A stretch of 64,000 nt of DNA from Novosphingobium sp. B 225 (GTDB lineage Bacteria > Pseudomonadota > Alphaproteobacteria > Sphingomonadales > Sphingomonadaceae): contig NZ_MWLM01000064.1 of the NCBI RefSeq assembly GCF_002198665.1, forward strand, positions 177,832-241,831, given 5' to 3'. Of the stretch, positions 76 through 45,272 are shown piece by piece. Position 1 is the stretch's first letter. Each line of letters starts with the position of its first letter. The translations under genes were made by a program, and so were the position numbers. A model generated the notes under the pieces. It had not been told where the DNA came from and did not search any database. It saw only the letters and a list, made by a program, of their open reading frames with translations.

Positions 76-1611
76 TCAGCTGATGTTCGAATCCGGGAAA
101 CTGGCCTTGCGCTGTTCCATATAGGCCAGCAATTTGGCGTCGATTTCGGGATCAAGCTCGGGCGCGACATAGCTGGCCAGCATGCTCTTGTAGAGCTTCT
201 CGGCCCGCTCCTCGGCATCCAGCTTGCCGTCTTCGATCCACTGTTCATAGCTGTTGTTGTCAGCAATGGTCGAACGGTAGAACGCGGTCTTGAAGTTGGC
301 CTGGGTGTGGCTGCAGCCCAGGAAGTGCTGGCCCGGACCAACCTCGGCCATGGCATCCAGCGCCTGACCGTTGGCGCTCATGTCCACACCCTTGGCATAG
401 ATCGCCATCATCGCCGCCTGATCGCAGTCCATCACGAATTTTTCATAGCCCATCGCCAGCCCGCCTTCGAGCCAGCCAGCGGTGTGGAGCATGAAGTTGA
501 CGCCTGCCATCAGCCCCTGCTGCAGCGTGTTGGCGCTTTCATAAGCAGCCTGTGCATCGGGTACCTTGGAAGCGTTGAAGCCGCCGGCACTGCGGAACGG
601 CACGCCCAGCCGCCGGGCCAGCGCCGCGCCGACGTTGATGATCAGCGATGCTTCGGGTGTGCCGAAAGTCGGCGCGCCAGACTGCATCGACATTGATGAC
701 ACGAAGTTGCCATAGATCACCGGAGCGCCGGGGCGGACCAGCTGGGCCAGCGCCATGCCGCACAGCCCTTCGGCCAGGCTTTGCGCCGCCACGGCTGCAA
801 CCGTCACCGGGCTCATCGCTCCGGCGACGATGAACGGGCTGATCATGGTCGCCTGGTTGTGCCGGGCATAGACCTTGAGCGCACCCAGCATGGTCGCGTC
901 AAAGGTCATCGGCGAATTGGCGTTGATCAGGTTGATCATCACGCAGTTGTTTTCAACGAAATCGTCACCGAACACGATCTTGGCCATGGCGACCGAATCT
1001 TCGGCGCGTTCGGGATGCGTGACCGAGCCCATGAACGGTTTGTCGCTGTACTTGATATGACTGTAGACCATGTCGAAGTGCCGCTTGTTGACCGGCAGGT
1101 CGACCGGCTCGCAGATCGTGCCGCCCGAATGGTGCAGGCTGTCAGCCATGTAGGCCAGCTTCACGAAATTGCGGAAGTCCTCGATCGTGGCATAGCGGCG
1201 GCCACCTTCGCGGCTGTAAACGAACGGGCTGCCATAGGCCGGGACCAGCACCAGCGCGTCGCCGCCGATCTGGACGTTGTTGGCCGGGTTGCGGGCATGC
1301 TGGGTGAAGATCCGGGGCGCGCTTTTCTGCACGATGCCGCGCAGCAGGCCGCGCGGAAAGCGCACGCGCTCACCATCTGCGGTTGCGCCGGCGGCCACGA
1401 ACAGCGCGATCGCTTCGGGGTCATCCTTGATGTCGATCCCGATCTCTTCCAGAATCGTGTCGGCGTTACGTTCCAGCTGCGCCAGATCATCATCGCCCAG
1501 CACCGAATAGGGCGGGATCTTGCGGGTGATATAGGCTTCGCGCGGGGCCAGTTCCGCAGCATTGGCGGCGGCGCGGCCACGGCGGCCTCCGGTGCGTCCT
1601 TCTCTCGACAT
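76..1611 (-). CDS. MttB-superfamily (non-pyrrolysine) corrinoid methyltransferase
   Basis: Predicted substrate:corrinoid methyltransferase of 511 aa that moves a methyl group from a quaternary or tertiary amine to the Co(I) corrinoid protein. The frame is open throughout, with no in-frame UAG, so it belongs with the non-Pyl members of the family, which include glycine betaine (MtgB), carnitine and proline betaine methyltransferases, rather than trimethylamine-specific Pyl-MttB. The core is full length. The N-terminus carries an extra basic segment with RTGGRRGR at residues 6-13 that reappears in the DUF1638 protein of the same operon. It is last in the operon, starting 1 nt after the stop of the activator gene. 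The cognate corrinoid protein (7067), activator (1613) and methyl-THF methyltransferase (3983) are all present. The substrate cannot be read from sequence; a betaine is favoured by the dimethylglycine/sarcosine genes at 34-47 kb. Confidence 0.88.
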   Translation of the reverse strand: MSREGRTGGRRGRAAANAAELAPREAYITRKIPPYSVLGDDDLAQLERNADTILEEIGIDIKDDPEAIALFVAAGATADGERVRFPRGLLRGIVQKSAPRIFTQHARNPANNVQIGGDALVLVPAYGSPFVYSREGGRRYATIEDFRNFVKLAYMADSLHHSGGTICEPVDLPVNKRHFDMVYSHIKYSDKPFMGSVTHPERAEDSVAMAKIVFGDDFVENNCVMINLINANSPMTFDATMLGALKVYARHNQATMISPFIVAGAMSPVTVAAVAAQSLAEGLCGMALAQLVRPGAPVIYGNFVSSMSMQSGAPTFGTPEASLIINVGAALARRLGVPFRSAGGFNASKVPDAQAAYESANTLQQGLMAGVNFMLHTAGWLEGGLAMGYEKFVMDCDQAAMMAIYAKGVDMSANGQALDAMAEVGPGQHFLGCSHTQANFKTAFYRSTIADNNSYEQWIEDGKLDAEERAEKLYKSMLASYVAPELDPEIDAKLLAYMEQRKASFPDSNIS

Positions 1612-1612
1612 C

Positions 1613-3583
1613 TTAACGTCCTTCTTGTCTGCCGCGTTCGCGCATGCGGCTGCGGCGGCCTCGGCCAGTCGCGGAATCGCCTTGCGTTGCGGGTGCGGTG
1701 GGGAATTGCATAGCGGCTACGAAGTAGTCCTGGAACTTGGGTTCGGTAGCAGTCTCAACTTTGATGATGTGCTTTACCGCTTCGATGATCCGCGCCTTTT
1801 CGGCCCGGTTGTACAGCGCCATCGCCGCGCCCATGCCCGCGGCATTGCCGATTGAACGGATCTGCGCGGCCGCGGCATTGGGGATGATCCCGATGTCAGC
1901 CACATACTGACTGTCCAGATGGGTGCCGAATGCGCCAGCCAGCAGCACTTCGTCAAATGCCGGACAGTCAAGGTAATCGACCAGCAGCTGCACCCCCGCA
2001 GCCAGCGCTGCCTTGGCCAGCTGCACTGCGCGGACGTCAGTCTGCTTGATGTAAAGCGGGTTTTCCGGACGGTCGAGCAGCAGGTATTTCCAGCTCTGCC
2101 CATCCTGAATGAACCGGTGCGGTGCCTCGCCGGGACGGAACAGCCCGCCCGGTTCGATCAGTCCGGCGCTGGCCAGTTCAACCATCACTTCGAAAATGCC
2201 CGAACCGCAGATCCCGACCACGCGCTTTTCAGCAATGTCGGCAGAATCGTCGCTCAGCCATTCATCGCTGCCGATCACCTTGAAGCGCGGTTGCTTGGTC
2301 ACGGGATCGATCCGCACCCGCTCGATCGCGCCCGGTGTCGCGCGCACCCCGGCGCTGATTTCCGCGCCTTCAAACGCCGGGCCAGTGGGCGATGAACAGG
2401 CCGCGACGCGCCCGCCATGGCTCAGCACAATCTCGGCATTGGTGCCAATGTCGACCAGCAGCACCGACCGCCCGGCCATGGTATCGAGCTGGGTCAGATA
2501 GGCCCCGGTGGTATCCGCACCAACATGCCCGCCAACCAGCGGCAGCAGCTGCACCCGTGCGGTTTCGGAAATGCCCAGATTGAACAGCGGGGCAGGGGCC
2601 TCGAACCAGTCTTTCACTGCCAGGGTGAACGGGGCCTGCCCCAGTTCGACCGGATTGATGCCCAGGAACAGGTGGTGCATGATCGGGTTGCCGACCAGCA
2701 CGACTTCGAGAATCTGGTTCGGTCCCAGCTCCAGCTTGGCCCGTGCGTCCTCCAGCATTCCGGCGATGGCGGTGCGGATTTCCGCCGTCAGCTTTTCCTC
2801 GCCGCCCTTGTTCATCATCACATAGGAGACGCGGCTCATCAGATCTTCGCCATAGCGGATCTGCGGGTTCATCGCCGATGCCTGATGGACCAGCGCGCCG
2901 TTGGTAAGGTCGTAGAGATAGAGCGCGATCGAAGTGGAGCCAATGTCGATCGCCGCGCCATAGGCATCGAACGGCGAGGGCGGCCAGACGTCGATCACGC
3001 TGACATCGTCGCGCACCACCGCAATCAGTTCACGCTCGTTCTGGGCCAGGATTGGCTGCAGCTTGGTCAGCGGGCGCAGTTCCAGCCGGGTCTCAACCCC
3101 GAAGCCGCGCAGCGCTTCGACCAGGGCATCGCCGTCGCTGGGATTGTCATCAAGCTCGGGTATGGGCAGCTTGCACATGTAGAGCCGGATTGCGGGATCG
3201 AGATCGGTCTGAAAGCCGGTGCTGTCCTTGGAAATGCTCGACACCTGATGCCGCGCATCACCGGGCACCTCGACCACGACATCACCCAGCACCTGTGCCC
3301 GGCAGGCGAGGCGGCGGCCGGGTTTAAGGTCACCGCGCCTGGCCGCTTTCTCTTCGCTGTCGGTCCAGCCAGAGAGGTGGTCGGCTTCGACCTTGACCCC
3401 GAATTTGGAATAGTCACCCGGCTCGAATTCAATCTGGCAGCGCCGGCACAGTCCCTTGCCGCCGCAGATCGAGAGTATGTCCACGCCCGAAGCGAGCGCG
3501 ACATCATAGACGCTCTGGCCATGGCTCGCGGTGGCACGGATGCCGGATGGGGTGAAGATCACCTTGTGCGATGTATCGCTCAT
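1613..3583 (-). CDS. ASKHA/DUF4445 corrinoid-activation protein with N-terminal [2Fe-2S] domain (RACo/RamA-like)
   Basis: Predicted ATP-dependent reductive activator that returns the corrinoid protein from inactive Co(II) to Co(I). It is 656 aa from the ATG at 3583. The start is fixed by a TGATG overlap with the upstream gene; an upstream extension in the same frame looks noncoding. The N-terminal ferredoxin-like domain has C40, C46, C49 and C94 in plant-type [2Fe-2S] spacing. The remainder is the large ASKHA region with the glycine-rich 'DIGSTSIALYLYDL' and 'VDIGTNAEIVL' phosphate-binding stretches expected in this family. Such activators accompany MttB/MtgB systems, because cob(I)alamin oxidises often, and more so in an aerobe. 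The MttB gene follows after 1 nt. Confidence 0.87.
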   Translation of the reverse strand: MSDTSHKVIFTPSGIRATASHGQSVYDVALASGVDILSICGGKGLCRRCQIEFEPGDYSKFGVKVEADHLSGWTDSEEKAARRGDLKPGRRLACRAQVLGDVVVEVPGDARHQVSSISKDSTGFQTDLDPAIRLYMCKLPIPELDDNPSDGDALVEALRGFGVETRLELRPLTKLQPILAQNERELIAVVRDDVSVIDVWPPSPFDAYGAAIDIGSTSIALYLYDLTNGALVHQASAMNPQIRYGEDLMSRVSYVMMNKGGEEKLTAEIRTAIAGMLEDARAKLELGPNQILEVVLVGNPIMHHLFLGINPVELGQAPFTLAVKDWFEAPAPLFNLGISETARVQLLPLVGGHVGADTTGAYLTQLDTMAGRSVLLVDIGTNAEIVLSHGGRVAACSSPTGPAFEGAEISAGVRATPGAIERVRIDPVTKQPRFKVIGSDEWLSDDSADIAEKRVVGICGSGIFEVMVELASAGLIEPGGLFRPGEAPHRFIQDGQSWKYLLLDRPENPLYIKQTDVRAVQLAKAALAAGVQLLVDYLDCPAFDEVLLAGAFGTHLDSQYVADIGIIPNAAAAQIRSIGNAAGMGAAMALYNRAEKARIIEAVKHIIKVETATEPKFQDYFVAAMQFPTAPATQGDSATGRGRRSRMRERGRQEGR

Positions 3584-3990
3584 CAGGCGCTCAGCCCCTC
3601 GTCCGGATAGGTGGCAAATTGCGGCAGGCCATCGCTGATCGCGTAATAGCCGCCCCGTTCGCTCAGGTAGATGTGTCCGCGTTCCGCAATGCCCTGGGTG
3701 CTGTCCAGCGATCCGGGTAGGACGCTGATCGTGTCGGTCTGGCGGTTGGTCCAGAACAACAGGCTGCCGCACGCGGCGCAGCGGGCATGTTCGGACGTGC
3801 CCGAATGGCGCGCCCAGACCACGTCGCCGTCCACGTCCAACCGGTCATGCGTGGTCCGGCACGCAGCCAGATAGTGCCCGGTCAGCGCGCGGCACTGGGT
3901 GCAGTGGCAATACCAGATGTCGGCAAGCCCGCGCGCGCGGTAGGTCACCGCGCCGCACAGGCATTTGCCGTGGTGCACGGCTTCACCCAC
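3583..3990 (-). CDS. GFA/Mss4-fold zinc protein
   Basis: Small protein of about 135 aa of the GFA family (once called glutathione-dependent formaldehyde-activating; many members have no proven activity). The zinc-ligand pattern is visible as CLCG, then CHCTQC, then CAAC. I chose the GTG at 3990 because GTGGGTGA overlaps the preceding stop by 8 nt, an overlap size used repeatedly in this operon, and an AAGGG lies upstream. An alternative GTG at 4035 would overlap the previous gene by 53 nt. Its place inside a methyl-transfer operon hints at dealing with formaldehyde or a thiol adduct, but that is only inference. It overlaps the activator gene by 1 nt (TGATG). Confidence 0.72.
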   Translation of the reverse strand: MGEAVHHGKCLCGAVTYRARGLADIWYCHCTQCRALTGHYLAACRTTHDRLDVDGDVVWARHSGTSEHARCAACGSLLFWTNRQTDTISVLPGSLDSTQGIAERGHIYLSERGGYYAISDGLPQFATYPDEGLSA

Positions 3991-4888
3991 GCCGCCGCCG
4001 CCCTTCGCGGCCACCGCGCCCGCCGCGGCCTTCACCTTCGGGGGCGGGTTCGCGGAACATCTTGATCCAGTTGGCGCAGTTGGGATCGACCCCGTTCAGA
4101 ATATCGGCGGCCTTGATCGCGGCGACCACGCCTTCGTGGCACGGGTTAAGGATCGCGCTGGTCATGCCTGCGCCGGCCGCCATCGGCAGGAAGCTGTTGC
4201 CGATCGCATGGCGGTTCGGCAGGCCAAAGGCGATGTTGGAGGCACCGCAGGTAGTGTTGACGCCCAGCTCCTCGCGCAGACGGCGGACGAGGCGGAACAC
4301 GTCGCGCCCGGCGCTGTTGATGGCGCCGATCGGCATGACCAGCGGATCGACGACGACGTCGCACGGCTTGATCCCGTGATCCTGCGCACGCTGGACGATC
4401 AGCTTGGCAATTTCAAAGCGCACATCCGGGTCTTCGGAAATCCCGGTCTCGTCGTTGGAGATCGCGACCACCGCCGCATCATACTTCTTCACCAACGGCA
4501 GCACCCGCTCCATCACTTCGCTTTCGGCCGTGGTGGAATTGACCAGCGCGCGGCCCTGATAGACTGCAAGGCCTGCCTCCAGCGCTTCGATGATCGAGCT
4601 GTCGATGCACAGCGGCACGTCGGTGACCGACTGGACCAGCTGGATCACCTCGGCCAGAATCTTCGGTTCATCGGCCAGCGGGATACCCGCATTGACGTCC
4701 AGCATCTGGGCACCCGCCGCGACCTGGGCGAGGGCATCGGCAACCACGCGGTCGTAATTGCCTTCCTTCATTTCGGCGGCGAGCAGCTTGCGGCCCGTGG
4801 GGTTGATGCGTTCGCCGATCATCACGAAGGGCTGGTCAAAGCCGATCACGACTTCCTTGGTGGCAGACTTGAGGACGGTCCTGGTCAT
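3983..4888 (-). CDS. Methyltetrahydrofolate:corrinoid methyltransferase (MtgA/MtvA-like, pterin-binding)
   Basis: Pterin-binding TIM-barrel methyltransferase of 301 aa, related to the methyl-THF domain of MetH and to MtgA. It should carry the methyl group from methyl-corrinoid protein to tetrahydrofolate. The start ATG at 4888 has an AAGGAAA ribosome-binding site. Near the N-terminus it has the signature VMIGERINPTG, followed by 'DVNAGIP' and 'CIDSS', all typical of the family. The last 17 residues (285-301) form a Gly/Arg/Glu tail (RGGRGGREGRRRR at 288-300) beyond the normal domain end; similar tags sit at the N-termini of the MttB and DUF1638 proteins. It begins 8 nt after metF. Confidence 0.87.
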   Translation of the reverse strand: MTRTVLKSATKEVVIGFDQPFVMIGERINPTGRKLLAAEMKEGNYDRVVADALAQVAAGAQMLDVNAGIPLADEPKILAEVIQLVQSVTDVPLCIDSSIIEALEAGLAVYQGRALVNSTTAESEVMERVLPLVKKYDAAVVAISNDETGISEDPDVRFEIAKLIVQRAQDHGIKPCDVVVDPLVMPIGAINSAGRDVFRLVRRLREELGVNTTCGASNIAFGLPNRHAIGNSFLPMAAGAGMTSAILNPCHEGVVAAIKAADILNGVDPNCANWIKMFREPAPEGEGRGGRGGREGRRRRG

Positions 4889-4896
4889 GGCTTTCC

Positions 4897-5928
4897 TTAC
4901 GCGTTGGCGGTTTGTTTGGAATGGTGAAGATGGCTGGGGGCCCAGGGCTTGCGCCCTTGCAGCACGCCGGAGCGGGCGACGATATCGCCAACCCATTCTT
5001 CCTGCTTGTAGGCCATCAGGTGAATGCCGCTCATACCTTTGATCTCGGCGAGCTGCTGCATGAGCTCAACCGCGATCGCCCGGCCTTCAGCCTTGGGCTT
5101 TTCGGCCTGTTCGAGGCGACGGATGATCTGGTCCGGAATATGCACCCCGGGGATTGCGCCCTTGAGCCACTTGGCGGTCTTGGCCGAGGCGAGCACGCCC
5201 ACGCCCATCAACACGTGGCAATGCTCAAGCAAGCCCAGATCCCGCGCCCGCGCCATGAATTCACGCGCCATTTCGATATCAAAGCAATACTGCGACTGGA
5301 CGAATTCGGCCCCGGCGGCAACTTTCTTGGCGAACTGATCGACGCGGTTGGCATAGGGCGGGGCAAAGGGGTTGATCGATGCGCCCATGAACAGCTGTGG
5401 CGGCAGATCGAGCTTACGGCCCGACAGGAACCGGCTTTCATCGCGCAGAGTCTTCACCGTTTGCAGCAATGAGACCGAATCGAAATCGAACACCGGCTTG
5501 GCTTCGGGGTGATCGCCTACCGATACGTCATCGCCCGACAGGCACAGCACCGAACAGACTCCCAGCGCCGCTGCGCCCAGCAGGTCGCCCTGAATCGCGA
5601 TGCGGTTGCGATCACGGCAACTGACCTGGATGATCGGCGAATAGCCTTCCCGCGTCAGCAGCGCGCAGACCCCCAGGCTCGACATATGGCAATTCGCGCC
5701 CGAACCGTCGGTGGCGTTGATCGCATCGACATGCCCGTCAAACAGCGCGGCGCGGCGCAATACTTCGCCCGGATCGGCACTGTCGGGCGGGGCGATCTCG
5801 GTCGAAATCGCGAAGTGGCCGGCGCGCAGCACGCGTTCAAACCGCCCGTGCGAGACATGGCCGGGCAGGATCGGCAGCGGATCGCCGGGGTTGAGCCCGG
5901 CTTCGTCAAACTGCGCCCGGTCAGTCAT
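4897..5928 (-). CDS. metF: Methylenetetrahydrofolate reductase (MetF family)
   Basis: Flavin-dependent 5,10-methylene-THF reductase of 343 aa. In this operon it probably works in the oxidising direction, turning methyl-THF made by the preceding enzyme into methylene-THF. Family features include the 'EIAPPD' stretch near residue 45 and the conserved 'NATDGSGAN' segment. It is longer at the C-terminus than E. coli MetF (about 296 aa). Its start overlaps the stop of the MetV-like gene by 8 nt (ATGACTGA), so the two are translationally coupled, as expected for subunits of a MetVF complex. A housekeeping copy may exist elsewhere. Confidence 0.87.
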   Translation of the reverse strand: MTDRAQFDEAGLNPGDPLPILPGHVSHGRFERVLRAGHFAISTEIAPPDSADPGEVLRRAALFDGHVDAINATDGSGANCHMSSLGVCALLTREGYSPIIQVSCRDRNRIAIQGDLLGAAALGVCSVLCLSGDDVSVGDHPEAKPVFDFDSVSLLQTVKTLRDESRFLSGRKLDLPPQLFMGASINPFAPPYANRVDQFAKKVAAGAEFVQSQYCFDIEMAREFMARARDLGLLEHCHVLMGVGVLASAKTAKWLKGAIPGVHIPDQIIRRLEQAEKPKAEGRAIAVELMQQLAEIKGMSGIHLMAYKQEEWVGDIVARSGVLQGRKPWAPSHLHHSKQTANA

Positions 5929-6361
5929 CGCGGGCCATCTTCAACCACGAGGAGGTGCCTTTGGCGCGGTGATCGACCGCGAAGTTCACATTCTTGATCG
6001 CATCGCCGTCCTTCATCCGCGAAGCCCCGTCCCACGCCGCAACCCAGACGCAGCGCATTTCGGGCTTCACTTCGCAGTGACCATTCTCGCGCACCCCGCC
6101 GCAGGGGCCGTTGCGGATCGTCTTGGGGCAATTCATCGGGCAGGACATGCCGGTTTTGGACAACGCGCAATCGCCGCACATCTTGCAATCGAAGAAGAAC
6201 CCTTTGGCGGCGGCTTCAACAGCGGTGATCGGCTTGTCGAGCTTGTTGCCGAACACTTTCACTGTTCCGCGCAGCAGCTTGACCACCATGGGATTGAACG
6301 TGGCGTAGAGCCATTCCATCTTGCGCGAATGGCGCACCGACCACAGCCGGACCCTATACAT
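5921..6361 (-). CDS. metV: MetV-like Cys-rich partner of MetF (methylene-THF reductase C-terminal domain family)
   Basis: Protein of 146 aa from the ATG at 6361, which overlaps the DUF1638 stop by 8 nt (ATGTATAG). Eight cysteines lie in the middle: C59, C62, C65, C74, C78, C87, C96 and C104, enough for two iron-sulfur clusters or a zinc plus a cluster. This family pairs with MetF as MetVF in acetogens and is also found near corrinoid methyltransferases. Its likely role is to channel electrons from the flavin of MetF to an acceptor other than NAD(P). The acceptor is not evident from the neighbours. A 12-residue N-terminal extension to 6397 is possible but less likely. Confidence 0.78.
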   Translation of the reverse strand: MYRVRLWSVRHSRKMEWLYATFNPMVVKLLRGTVKVFGNKLDKPITAVEAAAKGFFFDCKMCGDCALSKTGMSCPMNCPKTIRNGPCGGVRENGHCEVKPEMRCVWVAAWDGASRMKDGDAIKNVNFAVDHRAKGTSSWLKMARDD

Positions 6362-7067
6362 CGGCGGCCTCCCTGATCGCTTCGGCCAGATCGCCATAGC
6401 CGACCTTGTGATAGACGTAGTTCAGGCCCAGCCGCGCCGCCGCTTCCTGCGCCTTGGTCTGCAGATCCGGGTTGTCCGTCTGGGCCAGGTACACAAGGTC
6501 GCGGTAGTTGCCGAAATAGGTTTCGAGCATTTCGGGCCGGGTATCGAGGCCGCAACCTTCCCACACCAGCCGGTCGAAATGCCGGACCAGGAAATCAGTC
6601 ACAAAATAGCTGCCGATCTCCGCATCGGTGATCTGGTTGAAGCGCGGCGTCGTGGCGAAGAATTCATAGCAGTGCGCATGCGGCAGCCGGTTCGCCTCAT
6701 GCCGTTCCAGCACCTTGTCGAGCGCGCCGCCGGTGCCGCAATCGCCATAACCCAGGATCACTCGCGAATACTTGTGGCGATGCTCGGACAGAAAGGCATC
6801 CACGCGCGGCGCGATCTGGCCCGGGCGGTTGTGCAGTTCCGCAGGCAGGCAATGCAGCACCATGGCATCGTCCGTCACGCCAAGTTGTTCGCGCAGGGCA
6901 ATGATTTCATTGGCAATTGCGCCGCAGGCCAAGACCAGCACCGGCCCATCGGGATTGGCGCTGGTGGTGACGAGCGATTCCGGCTGGGCCGCCTCAGCTT
7001 CCTGCGGCCGCGCCCGGCGGCCCAGCCTAGCCTGGCGGCCACCGGTCCGGCGCGCAGCGTCGCTCAT
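6354..7067 (-). CDS. DUF1638 protein of the corrinoid operon
   Basis: Protein of 237 aa that I assign to the DUF1638 family, a recurrent neighbour of MttB and corrinoid genes with no function I can assert. Visible possible ligands are C48, H72-C73, H79, C110 (in GYGDCGTGG), H130, H132, C133 and C172, so a metal, cofactor or thiol role is reasonable. The first 20 residues are a basic tag with RTGGRQAR at 7-14 and RRAR at 17-20, matching the tag in the MttB protein. It starts with TAATG overlapping the corrinoid protein's stop and is coupled to metV by 8 nt. Position between corrinoid protein and MetV suggests a direct role in methyl transfer or corrinoid maintenance (inference). Confidence 0.8.
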   Translation of the reverse strand: MSDAARRTGGRQARLGRRARPQEAEAAQPESLVTTSANPDGPVLVLACGAIANEIIALREQLGVTDDAMVLHCLPAELHNRPGQIAPRVDAFLSEHRHKYSRVILGYGDCGTGGALDKVLERHEANRLPHAHCYEFFATTPRFNQITDAEIGSYFVTDFLVRHFDRLVWEGCGLDTRPEMLETYFGNYRDLVYLAQTDNPDLQTKAQEAAARLGLNYVYHKVGYGDLAEAIREAADV

Positions 7068-7753
7068 TAACGGTTTCTGCCGACCAGCGCCTTGGCCAGT
7101 TCCGCGCTGACCGCAGCGTCACGGCCATAGCTGGTCGCACCGATCGCGTCGGCGAATTCCTGGTTGAGCGGGGCTCCGCCGACCATCACCGGCAGGTTCT
7201 TGAGGATCCCGCGCTTTTCCAGTTCTTCGATCACCACGCCCATATAGGGCATGGTGGTGGTCAGCAGCGCCGACATGCCCATGATCGCCGGGTTGTGCTT
7301 GTCGATCGCGGCCAGATAGTTGTCGACCGGGTTGTTGATCCCCAGGTCGATCACTTCAAAGCCTGCACCTTCCAGCATCATGCCGACCAGGTTCTTGCCG
7401 ATGTCGTGAATGTCACCCTTGACCGTGCCGATCACATAGGTGCCGAGGCTGGCTTTGCTGTCGCTGGCGGCCAGAATCGGGCGGAGCAGTTCCATCCCGC
7501 CCTTCATCGCACCGGCGCATTGCAGCACTTCGGGAACGAACAGGATGCCGTCGCGGAAATCGATCCCGACGATGCGCATGCCTTCCACCAGGGCTTCTGA
7601 CAGCACGTCATTGGCGTCCCAGCCACGTTCGAGCAGGATTTGGGTGCCTTCGTGGACTTCGGCAGCCATGCCGTCGTAAAGGTCGTCCTTCATCTGTTCG
7701 ACCAGATCAGCATCGCTAAGGTCGCGCAGGATGATTTCTTCGCCGTCGGACAT
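7067..7753 (-). CDS. B12-binding corrinoid methyl-carrier protein (MttC/MtgC-like)
   Basis: Corrinoid protein of 228 aa that shuttles the methyl group between the MttB-family enzyme and the methyl-THF methyltransferase. The N-terminal four-helix cap spans about residues 1-90. The Rossmann-like cobalamin domain follows, with the DxHxxG lower-ligand motif as DIHDIG (D114, H116, G119), then 'MSALLTT' and the GG motif 'VGGAPL'. The start ATG at 7753 has GAGGGG upstream; a GTG at 7759 is closer to that site and less likely. It is the first gene of the operon and is transcribed away from the GlxA-type regulator at 7881. Confidence 0.9.
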   Translation of the reverse strand: MSDGEEIILRDLSDADLVEQMKDDLYDGMAAEVHEGTQILLERGWDANDVLSEALVEGMRIVGIDFRDGILFVPEVLQCAGAMKGGMELLRPILAASDSKASLGTYVIGTVKGDIHDIGKNLVGMMLEGAGFEVIDLGINNPVDNYLAAIDKHNPAIMGMSALLTTTMPYMGVVIEELEKRGILKNLPVMVGGAPLNQEFADAIGATSYGRDAAVSAELAKALVGRNR

Positions 7754-7820
7754 GGGCACCCCTCATTGGTTTCGGCCCCAGCCGGGGCATTGCTAGCACT
7801 GGCATAATGCGCTTGCGGGC

Positions 7821-7875
7821 CATGACGGTATATCTGAAAAGCGACAAATTCTTGCATTTTTCCGACATGACAAAT
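7821..7875. promoter_or_regulatory. Candidate operator/promoter between corrinoid operon and AraC-type regulator
   Basis: The 127-bp divergent intergenic region is AT-richer than its surroundings. It holds two copies of GACAAAT (7843-7849 and 7869-7875, 26 bp apart) and two copies of CATGAC (7821-7826 and 7866-7871). Direct repeats spaced by two to three helical turns suit an AraC-family activator. No confident -35/-10 pair was assigned. Confidence 0.35.
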
Positions 7876-7880
7876 AAGCA

Positions 7881-8873
7881 TTGCGAGTGCTTGAGGAAAC
7901 ATATCGTTCGCAGCTGAAATGGCCGCGCAGCTTTGGCTTTGTGCTGGTGCCGGACTTTTCGATGATGCCCTTTACCGCCGCGATCGAGCCGCTGCGCGCG
8001 GCGAACCGGATGCACGGGCGCGAGCTCTATCGCTGGACCACGCTAAGTGCTGATGGCCAGCCCGTTCGGGCCAGCAATGGAGCGATCGTGCAAGTGGACG
8101 GGCCCCTGACCGGCAGGGCAACAGTCGATGCCGTGGTGGTCTGTGCGGGCGTAAACGCCTATGATCACCGTAATCCGGGTATCTCGGCGCTGCTGCGCAA
8201 GCTTTCGCGCCAGGACTGCCTGATCGGCAGTGTCTGTTCGGGCAGCATCGTGCTTGCGGATACCGGGTTGCTCGATGGGCGGCGCTGCACGGGACACTGG
8301 GAAGACCTTGATTCACTTGCGGAAAACTATCCGTCGCTGGACGTAACGCAGAGCATTTTCGAAATCGATGGCAACCGTTTCACCTGTTCGGGCGGCACCG
8401 CGCCGCTGGACCTGATGATCCATTTCATCGCCCAGGATTTTGGCCGCGAACTGGCTGCGCGGGTGGCGGACCAGATGCTGCACCATTCGGCTCGCAAGCC
8501 CACCCAGCCGCAGCGGCTTGACCTGTCCGAACGCACGGGCGTGCGTCATCCGCGCTTGCTTGATGCGATCGCGGCGATGGAGGCCAGCCTGGAAGCGCCG
8601 CTGCCGCTGGCCGATCTGGCTGAGCGCGCGGGGCTATCACTCCGTCAGCTGGAACGGCTGTTCGCCGCCGAACTCGGCACTGGCCCGGGCCGCTATTACC
8701 GCGACTTGCGGTTGAACCGCGCGCGGCAACTGGTGCAGCAAACCGGGCTGTCGATGCTGGAAGTGGCCGTGGCAACCGGCTTCGCCTCGGCCGCGCACTT
8801 TGCCAGTGAATATGGCAAGACGTTCGGCCACCCGCCCAGCCGGGAGCGCGAAAAGGCGGCGCTTTTGGGTTAG
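7881..8873 (+). CDS. GlxA-family AraC-type transcriptional regulator (GbdR/CdhR-like)
   Basis: Regulator of 330 aa with an N-terminal DJ-1/PfpI-like amidotransferase-fold domain (about 15-200, including 'VCSGSIVLADTGLLDGR') and a C-terminal double helix-turn-helix AraC domain (about 225-325, 'LADLAERAGLSLRQLERLF' and 'VAVATGFASAAHFASEYGK'). GbdR and CdhR, which activate glycine betaine and carnitine catabolism in pseudomonads, have this architecture, so control of the divergent corrinoid operon is likely. There is no ATG near the N-terminus: an in-frame TAA lies at 7875, leaving TTG at 7881 or GTG at 7887. Its stop overlaps the fdsD stop on the other strand. Confidence 0.85.
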   Translation: MRVLEETYRSQLKWPRSFGFVLVPDFSMMPFTAAIEPLRAANRMHGRELYRWTTLSADGQPVRASNGAIVQVDGPLTGRATVDAVVVCAGVNAYDHRNPGISALLRKLSRQDCLIGSVCSGSIVLADTGLLDGRRCTGHWEDLDSLAENYPSLDVTQSIFEIDGNRFTCSGGTAPLDLMIHFIAQDFGRELAARVADQMLHHSARKPTQPQRLDLSERTGVRHPRLLDAIAAMEASLEAPLPLADLAERAGLSLRQLERLFAAELGTGPGRYYRDLRLNRARQLVQQTGLSMLEVAVATGFASAAHFASEYGKTFGHPPSREREKAALLG

Positions 8874-9076
8874 GCCGGGCTGGCCAACCGCTCCACCGCC
8901 GCTTTGGCGATCGGATCAAGCCCTTCGCGTTCTCCGCCAAGGATGCCGGCCTTCATGCGCGGGTCCCAGAAATCGCGGAGGTGCTGAAAGGTTGCGTCCA
9001 CCGCCGCAGCCTCACCCTGAGGGGCAAGGTTGCGGGCGATCTGGTTGGCCATATAGCGCAGGCGTTCGATATCCAT
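8870..9076 (-). CDS. fdsD: Formate dehydrogenase delta subunit FdsD
   Basis: Protein of 68 aa matching the small delta subunit/accessory protein of NAD-dependent molybdenum formate dehydrogenases: N-terminal 'MANQIARNLA' helix and the 'HLRDFWDPRMK' segment. In the R. capsulatus system FdsD is needed for active, cofactor-loaded enzyme. It is the last gene of fdsGBAD, 6 nt after fdsA. Its TAA overlaps the TAG of the convergent regulator gene by 2 bp within a 4-bp span. Confidence 0.87.
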   Translation of the reverse strand: MDIERLRYMANQIARNLAPQGEAAAVDATFQHLRDFWDPRMKAGILGGEREGLDPIAKAAVERLASPA

Positions 9077-9082
9077 TTGGGG

Positions 9083-11926
9083 TTACTCCGCCGCCACGCG
9101 CTTGATCCGGCGGCTCTTTTCGGACCAGCTGGCATAAGATTCCTGCCATTCGCTGGGCCCGTTGCTGGGCAGGACCTGCACTGCAGTCACTTTGTATTCT
9201 GGGCAGTTGGTGGCCCAGTCGGAATACTCCGTGGTGACCACGTTGGCTTGCGTCGCGGGGTGGTGGAACGTGGTATAGACCACGCCTGGCGCAACCCGGT
9301 CAGTCACGGTCAGGCGCAAGGTGGTTTCGCCGGTGCGGCTGGCCAGACGGGTCCAGTCACCATCCTTCAGTCCCCGGTTCTCGGCATCGAGCGGGTGCAT
9401 TTCCAGCAGGTCTTCCTGATGCCAGACGTTGTTGCCGGTGCGCCGGGTCTGCGCGCCGACATTGTACTGGCTCAGCACGCGGCCGGTGGTCAGCAGCAGC
9501 GGATAACGCGGGCCGGTCTTTTCATCGGTCGGGACATAGTCCGTCACCATGAATTTGCCCTTGCCGCGCACAAAGCCATCGACGTGCATGATCGGGCTGC
9601 CATCGGGCGCCTTTTCATTGACCGGCCATTGCAGCGAGCCTTCGGCATCGAGCCGGGCGTGGCTGACCCCGGCGAAAGTCGGGGTGAGGCGGGCGACCTC
9701 GTCCATGATTTCGCTGGGGTGCTGGTAATTCCAGCCCAGACCCATCGCTTTCGCGAGTTCCTGCGTCACTTCCCAGTCCTGCAGACCGTTGGCGGGTTCC
9801 ATCACCTTGCGCACCAGCTGGATGCGGCGTTCGGCATTGGTGAACGTGCCGTCCTTTTCCAGGAACGTGCTGCCCGGCAGGAACACGTGAGCATAGTTGG
9901 CCGTTTCGTTGAGGAACAGGTCGTGGACGATCACCAGATCCATCGCCTTCAAGCCCGCTGCGACGTGGTGGGTGTTGGGATCGGACTGGAGAATATCCTC
10001 ACCCTGGATATAGATCGCGCGGAAGCTGCCATCGATTGCAGCGTCAAGCATGTTGGGAATGCGCAGGCCCGGTTCGGGATCAAGCGCAACGCCCCAGTCC
10101 GCTTCGAAGCTGTCGCGCACTTCCTTGCCCGAGATGTGGCGATAGCCGGGCAGTTCGTGCGGGAAGCTGCCCATGTCGCAGCTGCCCTGAACGTTATTCT
10201 GCCCGCGCAGCGGGTTCACGCCTACGCCGCGACGGCCGATGTTGCCGGTGACCATCGCGAGGTTGGCGATGCTCATCACGGTCGAGCTGCCCTGGCTGTG
10301 CTCGGTCACGCCCAGCCCGTAATAGATCGCGCCGTTTCCGCCCGTGGCAAAAAGCCGCGCGGCGGCGCGCAAGGTCTCGGCGGGAACGCGGGTGACCGGT
10401 TCAAGCGCTTCGGGGCTGTGGCGATCCTGCGCCACGAAGCCTGCCCAATCCTGATACTCATCCCAGTCGCAGCGTTCGCGAATGAACTGTTCGGCGGCCA
10501 GGCCTTCGGTAACGATCACGTGGGCCATGGCGGTCAGCACCGCGACATTGGTGCCGGGTTGCAGCGCCAGGTGGTGCTGCGCCTCGATATGCGGGCTGCG
10601 GACCATGTCGATCCGGCGCGGGTCGATCACGATCAGCTTCGCGCCTTGCCGCAGCCGCCGCTTGAGTCGGCTGGCGAACACGGGGTGGCCGTCGGTGGGA
10701 TTGGCGCCGATCACCATCACCACGTCGGCGTCCATCACGCTGTCAAAGTCCTGCGTGCCCGCGCTGGTGCCAAAGGTCTTGGACAGGCCATAACCGGTGG
10801 GCGAGTGGCAGACCCGCGCACAGGTATCGACGTTGTTGCTGCCAAAGCCCGACCGGATCAGCTTCTGGACCAGCCAGACTTCCTCGTTGGTGCAGCGGCT
10901 GGATGTGATCCCGCCCAGCGCTCGCGCGCCATACTGCGCCTTGATGCTGTTGAGCTTGCCGGCGGTATAGCCCAGCGCCTCGTCCCAGCTGACTTCGCGC
11001 CAAGGCTCATCGATGCTGTCCCGGATCATCGGCTTGGTGATGCGGTCCTGGTGGTTGGCATAGCCCCAGGCAAAGCGGCCCTTGACGCAAGAGTGGCCGC
11101 GGTTGGCCTTGCCGTCCTTCCACGGCACCATGCGGACGAGCTGTTCGCCCTTCATTTCGGCGCGGAAAGTGCAGCCGACGCCGCAATAGGCGCAGGTGGT
11201 GACGACGGCGCGTTCGGGCTTGCCGATTTCCTTGACCGCCTTTTCCTGCAAGGTCGCAGTCGGGCAGGCGGCCACGCAGGCCCCGCAGCTGACGCATTCG
11301 CTGGAGAGGAAATTGTCACCGGTCTGACCGGCCGAAACCTTGCTGGCAAAGCCGCGCCCGTCGATGGTCAGGGCAAGGGTGCCCTGAACCTCGTCACAGG
11401 CGCGGACGCAGCGCGAGCAGGCGATGCATTTGCTGGCGTCGAAATCGAAATAGGGGTTCGAGGTGTCGATTTCCGCTCCGAGATGGTTCGCCCCATCATA
11501 GCCATAGCGCACATCGCGCAGGCCAACTTGCGCGGCGGTATCCTGCAATTCGCAATCGTTGTTGGCGCTGCAGGTCAGGCAATCGAGCGGGTGGTCGGAG
11601 ATGTAGAGTTCCATCACCGAACGGCGCAGCTTGGCGAGTTTCGGCGTCTGGGTGTGGACCACCATGCCCGGTTCGACCGGTGTGGTGCAGCTGGCCGGAG
11701 TGCCGCGCCGTCCTTCGATCTCGACGAGGCACATCCGGCACGAGCCGAAGGCCTTGACGCTGTCAGTCGCGCAAAGGCTGGGAATGTCCCCGCCGCACTG
11801 ACCGGCGGCGCGCATCACGCTGGTTCCGGCGGCCACGGTCACTTCGCGGCCATCGACCGTCAGGGTGACGGCGATGTCACTGGTCACTTCAGGGGTGCCG
11901 AAATCGGCCTGCCGTTCGTAGCCCAT
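9083..11926 (-). CDS. fdsA: NAD-dependent formate dehydrogenase alpha subunit (Mo-bisMGD)
   Basis: Catalytic subunit of 947 aa that oxidises formate to CO2. The N-terminal [2Fe-2S] domain has C44, C52, C63, C66 and C80. Two ferredoxin-type [4Fe-4S] sets follow (C167, C170, C173, C177 and C211, C214, C217, C221), and the cluster next to molybdopterin uses C245, C248, C252 and C280. The molybdenum-ligand position is C373 in ARVCHSPTG, so it is the Cys form, not selenocysteine. Length and domain order match FdsA of soluble cytoplasmic FdsABG. TGATG overlap with fdsB. In context it is the last oxidation step for C1 units leaving the folate pool. Confidence 0.96.
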   Translation of the reverse strand: MGYERQADFGTPEVTSDIAVTLTVDGREVTVAAGTSVMRAAGQCGGDIPSLCATDSVKAFGSCRMCLVEIEGRRGTPASCTTPVEPGMVVHTQTPKLAKLRRSVMELYISDHPLDCLTCSANNDCELQDTAAQVGLRDVRYGYDGANHLGAEIDTSNPYFDFDASKCIACSRCVRACDEVQGTLALTIDGRGFASKVSAGQTGDNFLSSECVSCGACVAACPTATLQEKAVKEIGKPERAVVTTCAYCGVGCTFRAEMKGEQLVRMVPWKDGKANRGHSCVKGRFAWGYANHQDRITKPMIRDSIDEPWREVSWDEALGYTAGKLNSIKAQYGARALGGITSSRCTNEEVWLVQKLIRSGFGSNNVDTCARVCHSPTGYGLSKTFGTSAGTQDFDSVMDADVVMVIGANPTDGHPVFASRLKRRLRQGAKLIVIDPRRIDMVRSPHIEAQHHLALQPGTNVAVLTAMAHVIVTEGLAAEQFIRERCDWDEYQDWAGFVAQDRHSPEALEPVTRVPAETLRAAARLFATGGNGAIYYGLGVTEHSQGSSTVMSIANLAMVTGNIGRRGVGVNPLRGQNNVQGSCDMGSFPHELPGYRHISGKEVRDSFEADWGVALDPEPGLRIPNMLDAAIDGSFRAIYIQGEDILQSDPNTHHVAAGLKAMDLVIVHDLFLNETANYAHVFLPGSTFLEKDGTFTNAERRIQLVRKVMEPANGLQDWEVTQELAKAMGLGWNYQHPSEIMDEVARLTPTFAGVSHARLDAEGSLQWPVNEKAPDGSPIMHVDGFVRGKGKFMVTDYVPTDEKTGPRYPLLLTTGRVLSQYNVGAQTRRTGNNVWHQEDLLEMHPLDAENRGLKDGDWTRLASRTGETTLRLTVTDRVAPGVVYTTFHHPATQANVVTTEYSDWATNCPEYKVTAVQVLPSNGPSEWQESYASWSEKSRRIKRVAAE

Positions 11927-13449
11927 CAGGCTTCTCCTCCAAAGTCTTCAGGCCAGTGCTTCAGCGCAGACATCACCGGATAGGGCGTGAAACCGCCCAG
12001 CGCGCAAAGCGAGGCGCTCTGCATCGTTTCGCACAAGTCTTCGAGCAGGGTCAGCTCTTCCTCGCGGCTGCGACCGGCCTTGCGGGCATTGTGCATCTGC
12101 GGCAGTGCCTCAACCGCGTCGGCCATCACCTTGCCGCCCGAACGGATCCGGTCGACCAGTTCGACCCCGCGCGTGCTCCCGATCCGGCAGGGGGTGCATT
12201 TGCCGCAGCTTTCCGCCGCGCAGAATTCAAACGCAAAGCGCGCCATCGCGCCCATGTCCGCCGTGTCGTCAAACACGCTGATCCCGCCGTGGCCGATCAG
12301 GGCATCGGCCTTGGCATAGGCTTCGTAATCGAACGGCAGGTGGAACTGGCTGGGCGGCACGTAGGCCCCCAGCGGCCCGCCAACCTGCACCGCCTTGACC
12401 GGGCGGCCCGACGCCGTGCCGCCGCCGATCTGATTGACCAGCGCGTCCAGCGTGATCCCGAAGGCGGTTTCATAGAGCCCGCCGTGCTTGATGTTGCCCG
12501 CCAGCTGGATCGGCATGGTCCCCTTGGACCGGTCGATCCCCAGCTGCGCGTAAAGCCCCGAACCGCCCTCGGTCATGATGTGCGGGATCGCGGCAAGGGT
12601 GAGGACGTTGTTGACCACCGTCGGGCAGCCGAACAGCCCTTCCAGCGCGGGCAGCGGCGGCTTGGCGCGCACTTCGCCACGCTTGCCCTCGATCGAGTTG
12701 AGCAGGCTGGTTTCCTCGCCGCAGACATAGGCCCCGGCGCCAACGCGCACTTCCAGCGTGAACGGCGCGATCTTGGCGGCGGCCAGCGCAATCGCGGCTT
12801 CCAGTTTGGCGATCGCGTGCGGGTATTCGCTGCGGACGTAGATGTAGCCTTGCTGCGCGCCAACGGCATGGGCGGCAATCGCCATACCCTCGATCAACTG
12901 GAACGGATCGCCTTCCATCAGCATCCGGTCGGCAAAAGTGCCGCTGTCGCCTTCGTCAGCGTTGCAGACCACGTATTTCTCGGCGCGCTTGGCTTCCAGC
13001 ACGGTGCGCCACTTGATCCCGGCGGGAAAGCCCGCGCCGCCGCGGCCGCGCAGGCCGCTTTCGATCACTTCGGCGACCACGTCCTCCGCGCTCATCGCGC
13101 GGGCGCGATCCAGTCCGGCCCAGCCGCCAGTTGCGGCATAGTCGTCCAGGCTGAGCGGGCGAGTGCGCCCGGCGCGGGCAAAGGTCAGCCGCTGCTGGCC
13201 CGCGATGAAGGCGTGATCTTCGATCTTGCCAATCGCCTTGGCGCTGGTCCCGTCTAGGATCGCGGCGACATCGCCCGCCTTGACCGGTCCAAAGCCCATG
13301 CCGCCCATCTCGACCAGCGGTTCCAGCCAGTGCATGCCCCAGCTCGACACGCGCTCAACCGTGCAACCGGCCTTGGCGAACGCATCGGCAAGCTCGTCAG
13401 CGCCCAGCGCCACAGCCAGCGCATCGTCGGAAATTCGGACCAGAGTCAT
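11926..13449 (-). CDS. fdsB: NAD-dependent formate dehydrogenase beta subunit (NuoF-like)
   Basis: Diaphorase subunit of 507 aa that binds FMN and a [4Fe-4S] cluster and reduces NAD+. The N-terminal thioredoxin-like region (about 1-110) is followed by the NuoF-type FMN/NAD domain with 'GRGGAGFPAGIKW', 'CNADEGDSGTF' and 'GAGAYVCGEETSLLNSIEG', and by the cluster motif ESCGKCTPCRIG. The start ATG at 13449 overlaps the fdsG stop by 4 nt (ATGA); an in-frame extension to 13548 would run through fdsG and is rejected. Confidence 0.96.
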   Translation of the reverse strand: MTLVRISDDALAVALGADELADAFAKAGCTVERVSSWGMHWLEPLVEMGGMGFGPVKAGDVAAILDGTSAKAIGKIEDHAFIAGQQRLTFARAGRTRPLSLDDYAATGGWAGLDRARAMSAEDVVAEVIESGLRGRGGAGFPAGIKWRTVLEAKRAEKYVVCNADEGDSGTFADRMLMEGDPFQLIEGMAIAAHAVGAQQGYIYVRSEYPHAIAKLEAAIALAAAKIAPFTLEVRVGAGAYVCGEETSLLNSIEGKRGEVRAKPPLPALEGLFGCPTVVNNVLTLAAIPHIMTEGGSGLYAQLGIDRSKGTMPIQLAGNIKHGGLYETAFGITLDALVNQIGGGTASGRPVKAVQVGGPLGAYVPPSQFHLPFDYEAYAKADALIGHGGISVFDDTADMGAMARFAFEFCAAESCGKCTPCRIGSTRGVELVDRIRSGGKVMADAVEALPQMHNARKAGRSREEELTLLEDLCETMQSASLCALGGFTPYPVMSALKHWPEDFGGEA

Positions 13450-13868
13450 GCGCTTTTCACCAGATTGACCAGCTCGGCTTCGTCGAGCCCGGCATAGAGT
13501 TTGCCGCGCACTCGCGCGCTGGGGCCCATCGAGCACAGCCCGAGACAATAGACCGGCTTGAGGTTCACACGTTCGCCAGCGGCCGCTTCCGCCGCATCAA
13601 CCAGCGCCTCAACCCCGCGCGCTTTGCAGGCTTCGGCGCGGCACAGTTCGACGACCGGGCGCGGATCGGGGGCGGGTGTGAAATCGTGGTAGAAGCTGAC
13701 TACCCCATGCACTTCCGCGCGGCTGAGGTTCAGTGCTTCGGCGATGGCTCGTTCAGCAGCGGCATCGACGCAGCCGAAGGCGTGCTGGATGTCATGCAGC
13801 ATCGGCAGCAAGGCACCCTTGCGGCCAGCATGTGCGGCGATGATCCGGTCTAGTTCAGTGGCTCCCAT
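13446..13868 (-). CDS. fdsG: NAD-dependent formate dehydrogenase gamma subunit (NuoE-like)
   Basis: Thioredoxin-like [2Fe-2S] subunit of 140 aa. Ligands appear as CRAEAC and CLGLC, the expected NuoE/FdsG spacing (Cx4C and Cx3C). It passes electrons between FdsB and FdsA. It is first of the four fds genes and follows the LysR gene after a 46-bp gap containing a tandem decamer (13873-13892). Confidence 0.94.
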   Translation of the reverse strand: MGATELDRIIAAHAGRKGALLPMLHDIQHAFGCVDAAAERAIAEALNLSRAEVHGVVSFYHDFTPAPDPRPVVELCRAEACKARGVEALVDAAEAAAGERVNLKPVYCLGLCSMGPSARVRGKLYAGLDEAELVNLVKSA

Positions 13869-14886: not shown

Positions 14887-16263
14887 TCAGCAGGCCGGCA
14901 CGTTGACCGCGAGCCCGCCAAGTGAGGTTTCCTTGTACTTGTCGCGCATGTCGAGCCCGGTCTGGCGCATCGTTTCGATGACTTTATCTAGGCTGACCAT
15001 ATGCGTGCCATCGCCCAGCATGGCGAGGCGCGCGGCGTCGATCGCCTTGACTGCGCCCATCGCGTTGCGTTCGATGCAAGGGATCTGCACCAGCCCGCCC
15101 ACCGGATCGCAAGTCAGGCCCAGGTTGTGCTCCATGCCGATTTCGGCGGCGTTCTCGACCTGGGCATTGGTTGCGCCCAGCGCCGCTGCCAGTCCTGCCG
15201 CTGCCATCGAGCAAGCCACCCCGACTTCGCCCTGGCATCCAACTTCCGCCCCGGAAATTGAGGCGTTCTTTTTGTAAAGCGCGCCGATTGCCGCCGCCGT
15301 AAGCAGGAACGTCCGGCGGGTTTCCGCCGTGCCGCGATAGCAGCGATCGTGGAATCGCATCACTGCCGGGATGATCCCCGCAGCACCGTTGGTGGGGGCG
15401 GTTACAACGCGCCCGCAAGCTGCGTTTTCTTCATTGACGGCCATGGCCCACAAGTTGATCCAGTCCAGGATCGCGAGTGGATCGCCCAGGTTTGATCCAT
15501 GGTTGGCCGCCAGATCAGCGGCGAGCGATGGCGCGCGGCGGCGCACATTGAGCCCGCCGGGAAGTATTCCGGTCTCGCGGCAGCCCCGGTCGATCGAATC
15601 CGACATCGCCTGAGCGATTCCATCGATCCCGGCCAGCACTTCGGCTTCGGGGCGGCGGGCGCATTCGTTGGCAAATTCCAGATCGGCAAAGCTCTTGCCG
15701 CTCGCTTCGCCCAGTGCGAGCAGTTCAGTGCCCGAAGAAAAGTCATAGGGCAGGGCGCAGCGCTCCACCCCGGCGTTCTCGTTGCTGCCGGCCTCGTCCT
15801 CATCAACCACGAAGCCGCCGCCGATCGAGTAATAGAGCCGCCGCGCCAGTTCTGCGCCCGCACCATCAAGCGCGACAAAAGCCATCGCATTGGTGTGATA
15901 GGGAAGCCGCTTGCGCTGGAAGAAAACTATGTCGCATGCTGGATCGAATGCGACTGCTTGGCCGCCCAGCACGATCTGCTTCGCTTCAGCGATCCGGGTC
16001 AGGATCTGGGGGACAGCTTCGACATCAACTGTCGCGGGCGCTTCACCCGCCAATCCCAGGATCACGGCGTTGTCGGTGGCGTGGCCCTTGCCGGTCAGCG
16101 CCAGCGAGCCATAGAGCTCAACCTTGATCCGCCGCACCGCCGCGAATTCCGGCTGCAGTGCCATCCAGTCTCCAAACCGCCGCGCCGCAACCATCGGGCC
16201 AACGGTGTGCGAGCTCGACGGACCGATCCCGATCTTGAACAGTTCGAACAGGCTGATGCTCAT
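14887..16263 (-). CDS. sdaA: L-serine ammonia-lyase, iron-sulfur dependent
   Basis: Single-chain L-serine dehydratase of 458 aa converting L-serine to pyruvate and ammonia. The N-terminal regulatory beta domain starts with '[12 protein letters not shown]'. The catalytic alpha domain has '[13 protein letters not shown]', the Cys-containing '[13 protein letters not shown]' and '[16 protein letters not shown]', supplying [4Fe-4S] ligands, and it ends in the usual C-terminal Cys tail (NVPAC). The start overlaps the YbaK gene stop (ATGA). Next to C1 genes it fits conversion of glycine plus methylene-THF, through serine, to pyruvate; glyA is not in the window. Confidence 0.94.
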
Positions 16264-33890: not shown

Positions 33891-34030
33891 GCTGCAGCGC
33901 CGCGCGCCGGAATGGCACTTATCCATACCATTAAAATGCGCCATATCGCCCCGACGGACCGCTTGCGCCCTGTTTTACTTTGGCGTTGGCTGACATAGGG
34001 ACCCTGACAACAGGCAGGAAGCGCAAGGCA

Positions 34031-38158: not shown

Positions 38159-38159
38159 G

Positions 38160-45240: not shown

Positions 45241-45272
45241 AGCGACGATCCGCCGTTCGTATGGAGTTGCAT

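Follow-up and report, generated by a model that had tools for sequence, protein, structure and literature searches.

Operon layout and gene products

The 64,000-nucleotide stretch of DNA analysed in the present study (hereafter, the window), taken from contig NZ_MWLM01000064.1 of Novosphingobium sp. B 225 (positions 177,832 to 241,831), carries an operon of eight genes that run in one direction on the minus strand, from window position 7759 to 76, with overlapping or closely spaced ends. The gene order is MtgC-DUF1638-MetV-MetF-MtgA/D-GFA-RACo-MttB, with mttB1 as the last gene; neighbours share up to 53 bases or lie at most a few tens of bases apart, and a gene for a GbdR-like activator diverges from the operon (Table 1). 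Most likely, this operon serves the B12-dependent demethylation of glycine betaine, of the aerobic MtgBCD kind, and feeds the methyl group into tetrahydrofolate (THF)-linked one-carbon (C1) oxidation.

A complete corrinoid methyl-transfer operon (MttB, corrinoid protein, activator, THF methyltransferase, MetV and MetF) had been claimed in the initial annotation, and all of the parts named there were recovered by family matches on the minus strand and at the positions given for them. At the same time, two members of the operon, the DUF1638 and GFA-family genes, had been overlooked. Family matches with such small E-values are not due to chance. Assignment of MttB1 to the pyrrolysine type was rejected, since it scored only 253 bits against the TIGR02369 cut-off of 525 and its gene carries no in-frame stop.

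Start codons nearer than the limit of the longest open reading frame (ORF) were judged from a reading of the sequence. The longest reading of metV extends to 6397, with the start likely near 6319, and the longest ORF of mtgA/D reaches 4996. The metV gene is located directly upstream of the short metF, with an overlap at positions 5921-5928. In the GFA-family protein, the zinc-type cysteines are largely kept, as judged from a 17-sequence alignment.

Table 1 Coordinates of the operon and of neighbouring catabolic genes in the window (paired bit scores are score and model cut-off)
Feature	Positions	Strand	Matches and remarks
mttB1/mtgB, predicted non-pyrrolysine betaine:corrinoid methyltransferase	76-1611	-	PF06253, E 1e-221; no internal stop
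RACo/RamA-like ATP-dependent corrinoid activator with 2Fe-2S ferredoxin domain	1613-3583	-	PF14574, PF17651, PF17650, PF00111, Fer2
GFA-family zinc protein, between mtgD and RACo	3583-4035	-	PF04828, E 8e-17
mtgA/mtgD, methyl-corrinoid:THF methyltransferase, pterin-binding	3983-4888	-	PF00809; NF005719, 359/259 bits
metF, short type, predicted to convert methyl-THF to methylene-THF	4897-5928	-	PF02219, E 5e-30
metV, predicted iron-sulphur electron-transfer partner of MetF	5921-6397	-	PF12225/DUF5981, E 4e-26; NGPCGG motif, cysteine-rich stretch
DUF1638 protein, presumed corrinoid reactivation or maintenance	6354-7067	-	PF07796, E 2e-27
mtgC, corrinoid (B12) shuttle, first gene	7067-7759	-	PF02607, PF02310; ATG at 7753 (GTG at 7759); DxHxxG motif
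GbdR-like DJ-1/PfpI-AraC activator, divergent from operon	7881-8873	+	PF01965, PF12833; best curated match NF052371 (GbdR)
NAD-linked formate dehydrogenase, alpha	9083-11926	-	TIGR01591 (Fdh-alpha), 926/666 bits; PF01512 and PF01257 matched within the alpha-beta-gamma set
NAD-linked formate dehydrogenase, beta	11926-13548	-	See alpha
NAD-linked formate dehydrogenase, gamma	13446-13868	-	See alpha
L-serine ammonia-lyase	14887-16263	-	TIGR00720, 643/345 bits
Dimethylglycine/sarcosine dehydrogenase-like protein (DAO and GCV_T domains)	33980-36538	+	PF01266, PF01571, PF08669; below all equivalog models
Sarcosine oxidase SoxB-SoxD-SoxA	36905-41290	+	TIGR01373, 705/529 bits; PF04267; TIGR01372, 1414/1164 bits

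RamA-like and DUF1638 proteins were tied to B12 reactivation by Price et al., with the fitness link of DUF1638 reported for Phaeobacter inhibens (PMC5764234). Across 35 aligned DUF1638 sequences, C110, H132 and C133 are invariant and C48 and C73 nearly so. The AlphaFold model of the protein encoded in the window has a mean pLDDT (predicted local distance difference test score) of 86.7 over 237 amino acids and is good beyond the first ~30 residues; among its listed elements, C48, C73 and C110 stand at strand ends or at most four residues after them. The conserved cysteines would thus possibly suit a metal or cofactor site. A fold search of the model against the PDB gave no match with E < 0.001 (best E 0.013), and its weak matches were to aspartate/glutamate-racemase-like and other alpha/beta proteins (Z up to 6.9 over 84 residues); since these lie within the range of a common structural arrangement, no function was drawn from the fold.

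Conservation and described counterparts

The operon is rare in the host family, which was identified as Sphingomonadaceae from named relatives in an MttB1 scan and from the grouping in the MttB tree (see below). Among 298 sampled genomes of this family, the window genome included, DUF1638 was found in four and PF06253 in five; four of the latter are the DUF1638 genomes and hold full-length PF06253 proteins, and the fifth, a fragmented and 84% complete assembly, gave two partial matches. All four genomes with the operon keep the order MtgC-DUF1638-MetV-MetF-MtgA-GFA-RACo-MttB1 together with the divergent GbdR-like gene.

Scanning of named genomes with MttB1 gave at least 580 confirmed stretches, the best 80 of which were used for locus counts, with the window proteins as tblastn queries (E 1e-8) for accessory genes. 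All six accessory genes (MtgC, DUF1638, MetV, MetF, MtgA and RACo) were present at 30 of these 80 related loci and at least one of them at 47; after filtering of overlaps, genes resembling dimethylglycine dehydrogenase (DMGDH; 23 loci), SoxA (17), SoxB (16), the GbdR-like regulator (25) and GFA (19) were also detected nearby. The hosts include Novosphingobium, Hellea, Henriciella, Arenicella, Thioglobus, Pseudomonas, Rhodoferax, Aromatoleum and SAR324, a range which indicates that the operon is widespread in Proteobacteria. Among the named genomes, Novosphingobium Fuku2-ISO-50 carries on its contig every part of the operon but GFA.

MetFV has been described mainly from anaerobic bacteria (PMC8515935). 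In a class sample of 387 genomes, MetV (PF12225) was detected in 28 (27 over the cut-off) and DUF1638 in 78. DUF1638 accompanied MetV in 26 of the 28 MetV genomes, within 3 kb in 23 (hypergeometric P ~5e-18, relatedness ignored). Within Alphaproteobacteria, a MetV gene is therefore for the most part linked to loci of this type, of which it can serve largely as a marker.

The aerobic route was suspected at first to be poorly described, and this suspicion does not stand: the route was demonstrated in 2025 in Ruegeria pomeroyi by proteomics and knock-outs (Mausz et al., PNAS September 2025, PMC12478193), and a locus with six of the genes in the same order, MttB being divergent, exists in Sinorhizobium meliloti. 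The window therefore provides a well-organised further example of an already described route, in a group where it is rare. As reported for R. pomeroyi, neither growth on glycine betaine nor methionine synthesis proceeds without MtgC and MtgD, the mtgC and mtgD mutants fail on glycine betaine even with methionine, and two MtgB proteins, a RamA-like protein, DUF1638 and a MetF paralogue were more abundant in the proteomics (PMC12478193). The same paper traced the mtgBCD route by genomics across marine bacteria, covering Alpha-, Gamma- and Deltaproteobacteria with S. meliloti included, and reported genomes that hold both metH and mtgBCD. Its main text makes no mention of MetV, DUF5981, GbdR, glutathione or sphingomonads, and no account of a B12-dependent betaine route in sphingomonads was present among the open-licence literature matches listed.

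Matched by the published description, the two systems have in common a PF06253-type MtgB, a free MtgC, a pterin-binding MtgD, the RamA-like and DUF1638 proteins and a dedicated methylene-THF reductase, along with demethylation of dimethylglycine and sarcosine, THF-linked C1 oxidation, a serine deaminase, aerobic respiration and a proteobacterial host (R. pomeroyi DSS-3). They differ in that the R. pomeroyi genes are not colocated (PMC12478193), whereas those of the window form one operon, and in that the reductase named for R. pomeroyi is MetF2 (PMC12478193), whereas MetV and a short MetF occur here. Moreover, the R. pomeroyi route is shared with methionine synthesis, whereas the complete MetH of the present host and its lack of a clear MtgE (see below) indicate that the operon is probably not so shared.

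Direct protein comparison was made against the S. meliloti counterparts, standing in for those of R. pomeroyi. At the bmt-mtg locus of S. meliloti strain Ak57 (pSymB, CP090106.1; L106), MtgC, DUF1638, MetV, MetF, MtgD and RACo follow each other in the same order as in the window; bmt and then MttB are on one strand, and the divergent set reads MtgC-DUF1638-(other genes)-MetV-MetF-MtgD-(small gene)-RACo. Identities between the counterparts are 42-66% (MtgC 65.6, MtgD 65.5, MttB 64, MetF 63, MetV 56 and RACo 42). The S. meliloti MttB is identical over 503 aligned residues to PDB 4YYC, to which MttB1 is 63-65% identical. The S. meliloti locus differs from the window in its nearby bmt/MtgE, in two additional small genes (“virulence factor” and hypothetical), in giving no GFA match and in its divergent MttB, which is the last gene of the operon here. 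The small “virulence factor” gene is located just upstream of metV in S. meliloti (L106:13954-14256) and in Azoarcus (L108:10285-10620); in the window, DUF1638 and metV lie too close together to accommodate it.

The same six genes occur in Paracoccus methylovorus, where MttB diverges from them and a GlxA regulator is present. In Azoarcus, their neighbours are glycine betaine transport genes (proV, permease and substrate-binding) and a GlxA-type regulator, and MttB is located ~25 kb away from them. The MtgABC system of Desulfitobacterium hafniense has in common with the window the MtgB homologue (MttB1 is 46% identical to 2QNE), the corrinoid protein and the THF methyltransferase logic; however, this organism is an anaerobe, and MtgC from the window falls below the NCBIfam MtgC models. 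D. hafniense MtgA was described as having no sequence identity to known structures (PMC7154762). The MetVF of acetogens such as Clostridium ljungdahlii is alike in having a separate MetV with NGPCGG just upstream of MetF (PMC8515935), but in acetogens it works in the reductive direction, with ferredoxin or NADH, whereas an oxidative run in an aerobe is predicted here.

Predicted route, substrate and alternatives

The host genome (3.7 Mb, 99.96% complete) contains a complete MetH with the activation domain PF02965 (contig C10) and a separate metF beside metH, which is distinct from the metF of the operon; methionine synthesis should therefore not need the operon. B12-cap domains were found in only two proteins of the genome, MetH and MtgC, which makes MtgC the sole free corrinoid shuttle found for both MttB1 and a second homologue encoded elsewhere on the contig, MttB2. 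The only other homocysteine-methyltransferase-type protein found, a PF02574 protein beside the carnitine genes (L008:9217-10146), was rejected as a clear MtgE orthologue, being 26.6% identical to S. meliloti bmt/MtgE and scoring 117 bits against the NCBIfam cut-off of 215. CbiC, the one marker gene tested, gave no match in the genome, though MetH and the operon both need cobalamin; thus, cobalamin is probably imported, and the host is a probable B12 auxotroph. Taken together, the complete MetH, the lack of a clear MtgE and of a CbiC match make the set look purely catabolic and fed by imported cobalamin.

Three Rieske (Ring_hydroxyl_A) proteins of the genome scored 138, 85 and 139 bits against the 670-bit cut-off of the GbcA equivalog NF058607, so that GbcA identity was rejected for all of them and no oxygenase-based pathway for glycine betaine is evident. 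The presence of terminal oxidase genes, with two COX1-family proteins in the genome, agrees with the earlier placing of the host among aerobes. The proposal of the initial annotation that a B12-based betaine demethylase feeds an oxidative C1 pathway is well supported by the anatomy of the operon, its synteny, the type of regulator, the neighbouring pathway genes, the terminal oxidase genes and the absence of a GbcA equivalog.

What was observed is the identity, order, conservation and context of the genes; each reaction, as well as the substrate, the control of the operon and the acceptor of MetVF electrons, is deduced. In the predicted route, MttB1 would transfer one methyl group from glycine betaine to Co(I) of MtgC, leaving dimethylglycine, and MtgA/D would pass it from MtgC to THF. 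Oxidation of methyl-THF to methylene-THF would be performed by MetVF and continued to CO2 by FolD, then by formate-THF ligase (Fhs) in reverse, or PurU, and then by formate dehydrogenase; alternatively, the C1 unit could enter serine, followed by deamination. Dimethylglycine would be converted to glycine by the DMGDH-like and sarcosine-oxidase enzymes. RACo would spend ATP on bringing accidentally oxidised cobalt from Co(II) back to Co(I), with some form of help from DUF1638; such oxidation is expected to be common in an aerobe. Stray formaldehyde may be dealt with by the GFA-like protein. The GbdR-like activator is expected to turn the operon on with betaine, and choline and carnitine would enter via BetA and carnitine dehydrogenase.

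MttB1 keeps Y94, N199, R309 and H345 of D. hafniense MtgB, and the combination Y, N, R, H and G at positions 94, 199, 309, 345 and 353 is found in 85 of 93 aligned sequences, MttB1 included, in an alignment that left out proteins shorter than 430 amino acids and loci L090-L093. MttB2, located outside the window (L003:10068-11702; genome C61:160082-161599) next to the formate-THF ligase gene, has A, N, R, Q and G at these positions, as do its two sphingomonad orthologues. The site of MttB1 thus fits glycine betaine, which is very likely the main substrate, and MttB2 probably takes something else.

MttB1 and MttB2 are 53% identical. In a quick tree of the 93 sequences, MttB2 and its two orthologues cluster with five gamma- and betaproteobacterial sequences (support 86, stem 0.72, long branches flagged), on a branch separate from that of MttB1. 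A recent duplication was rejected on the basis of this identity and branching, and separate acquisition of the two genes appears likelier, though not firmly so. A third MttB, ~26% identical, is present in a genome of the same genus (G249, L094: about 7681-9192) beside a gamma-butyrobetaine-dioxygenase-like gene.

Several observations weigh against glycine betaine demethylation as the function of the operon. The four site residues were proposed for betaine binding by docking and not by mutagenesis (PMC6855144), and position 353 is G in MttB1 and F in D. hafniense MtgB. The regulator scored 335 bits, below the cut-off of 480 of the GbdR model NF052371, and MtgC was below both NCBIfam MtgC models (198 bits against 370 for NF047996 and 153 against 310 for NF047995), so that the operon was not classed as a D. 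hafniense-type MtgABC. No accessory gene of the six was detected at 33 of the 80 related loci, of which 15 are on stretches shorter than 12 kb and 18 on stretches above that length; MttB without the rest nearby is therefore common. GFA gave no match in the close relatives L010, L011 and L012 and is not a constant part of the operon. Finally, in one genome of the family (G125), MttB2 adjoins a DMGDH-like gene with SoxB beyond, and MttB2 could itself be a betaine enzyme.

A more elaborate form of the glycine betaine assignment, which we put forward tentatively and hold to be rather doubtful as a whole, is a catabolic MtgBCD system uncoupled from methionine synthesis. MtgC would serve both MttB1, with glycine betaine, and MttB2, whose A/Q site would accept another quaternary amine. 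The iron-sulphur MetVF would oxidise methyl-THF in an oxygen-respiring cell and pass the electrons to a carrier that may also supply the 2Fe-2S activator RACo, so that the pathway would recharge its own B12; since no CbiC was found, betaine use would in that case depend on imported cobalamin.

It is unlikely that the substrate of MttB1 is another quaternary amine (carnitine, gamma-butyrobetaine, choline or proline betaine), with glycine betaine taken by MttB2 or by nothing in the operon. Such a specificity would be in line with the two gamma-butyrobetaine-dioxygenase-like genes and the carnitine dehydrogenase that also belong to the island, with the G125 neighbourhood of MttB2 and with the use of one corrinoid protein by Eubacterium MttB-family members of different substrates (PMC12478193). 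However, MttB1 carries the same Y94/N199/R309/H345 set as the MtgB of D. hafniense and the MttB of S. meliloti, whereas two of these positions are occupied by A and Q in MttB2; the top curated match of the regulator is GbdR, and the Azoarcus version of the operon is located beside glycine betaine transporter genes.

Far less credible is a primary role as a split methionine synthase (MtgC and MtgD with an MtgE), as in P. inhibens, with catabolism secondary. In P. inhibens, methionine synthesis depends on a RamA-like protein, on DUF1638 and on counterparts of MtgC and MtgD (PMC5764234), and in R. pomeroyi on MtgC and MtgD (PMC12478193). The P. inhibens type has no MetH activation domain, a role taken there by the RamA-like protein, but the present genome has a complete MetH with PF02965 and its own metF, its only MtgE-type protein found is the distant homologue described above, and a catabolic role is suggested by the sarcosine oxidase, formate dehydrogenase and serine deaminase genes on the flanks. 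A methyl donor other than an amine, such as dimethylsulphoniopropionate, a methyl halide or an aryl methyl ether, is also highly improbable: other corrinoid methyltransferase families use such donors, a chloromethane system being reported (PMC13222342), but MttB family membership, the betaine-type residues and the many neighbouring catabolic genes for N-methyl compounds argue against it.

With glycine betaine demethylation retained as the most likely function, the recently described aerobic B12 betaine route extends to a sphingomonad, where its genes are packed into one operon that forms part of a broader island. Somewhat new, to a modest degree, are the occurrence in a sphingomonad, the apparent independence of methionine synthesis, the presence of GFA among the operon genes and the changed site of MttB2. 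The operon could be a handy place to test the route without its link to methionine synthase, the electron acceptor of MetVF and the role of DUF1638, as well as a test case for a possible reliance of non-marine betaine turnover on scavenged cobalamin.

Neighbouring catabolic genes

The genes of the contig form a choline/carnitine/betaine island, whose combined activities could convert all three compounds to glycine and CO2. Outside the window, the same contig carries FolD with a BCCT transporter beside it, and a BCCT-type protein (L004:4118-5737) that faces this transporter and exceeds the cut-off for trimethylamine N-oxide permease (785 against 690 bits). A choline dehydrogenase (833 bits against a cut-off of 732), a carnitine 3-dehydrogenase (665 against 592) beside a BKACE enzyme, and Fhs, which adjoins MttB2, are also located on the contig outside the window.

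Two gamma-butyrobetaine-dioxygenase-like proteins are encoded on the contig, one in the window (30986-32116) and one outside it (L003:6126-7364). Both scored under the cut-offs for gamma-butyrobetaine, trimethylaminoethylphosphonate and trimethyllysine dioxygenases, and they are possibly hydroxylases of other quaternary amines. Positions 23237-27557 of the window carry in a row genes for an aldehyde dehydrogenase, an enolase-superfamily acid-sugar dehydratase-like protein and a GMC oxidoreductase, with a major facilitator superfamily transporter upstream; none of the three enzymes reached a curated NCBIfam cut-off. A second sarcosine-oxidase-like set, SoxA-SoxD-SoxB, is located at 42230-46720 and is followed at 46809-50661 by a DAO protein, a pyridine-nucleotide oxidoreductase and a Cys/Met-type pyridoxal phosphate enzyme.

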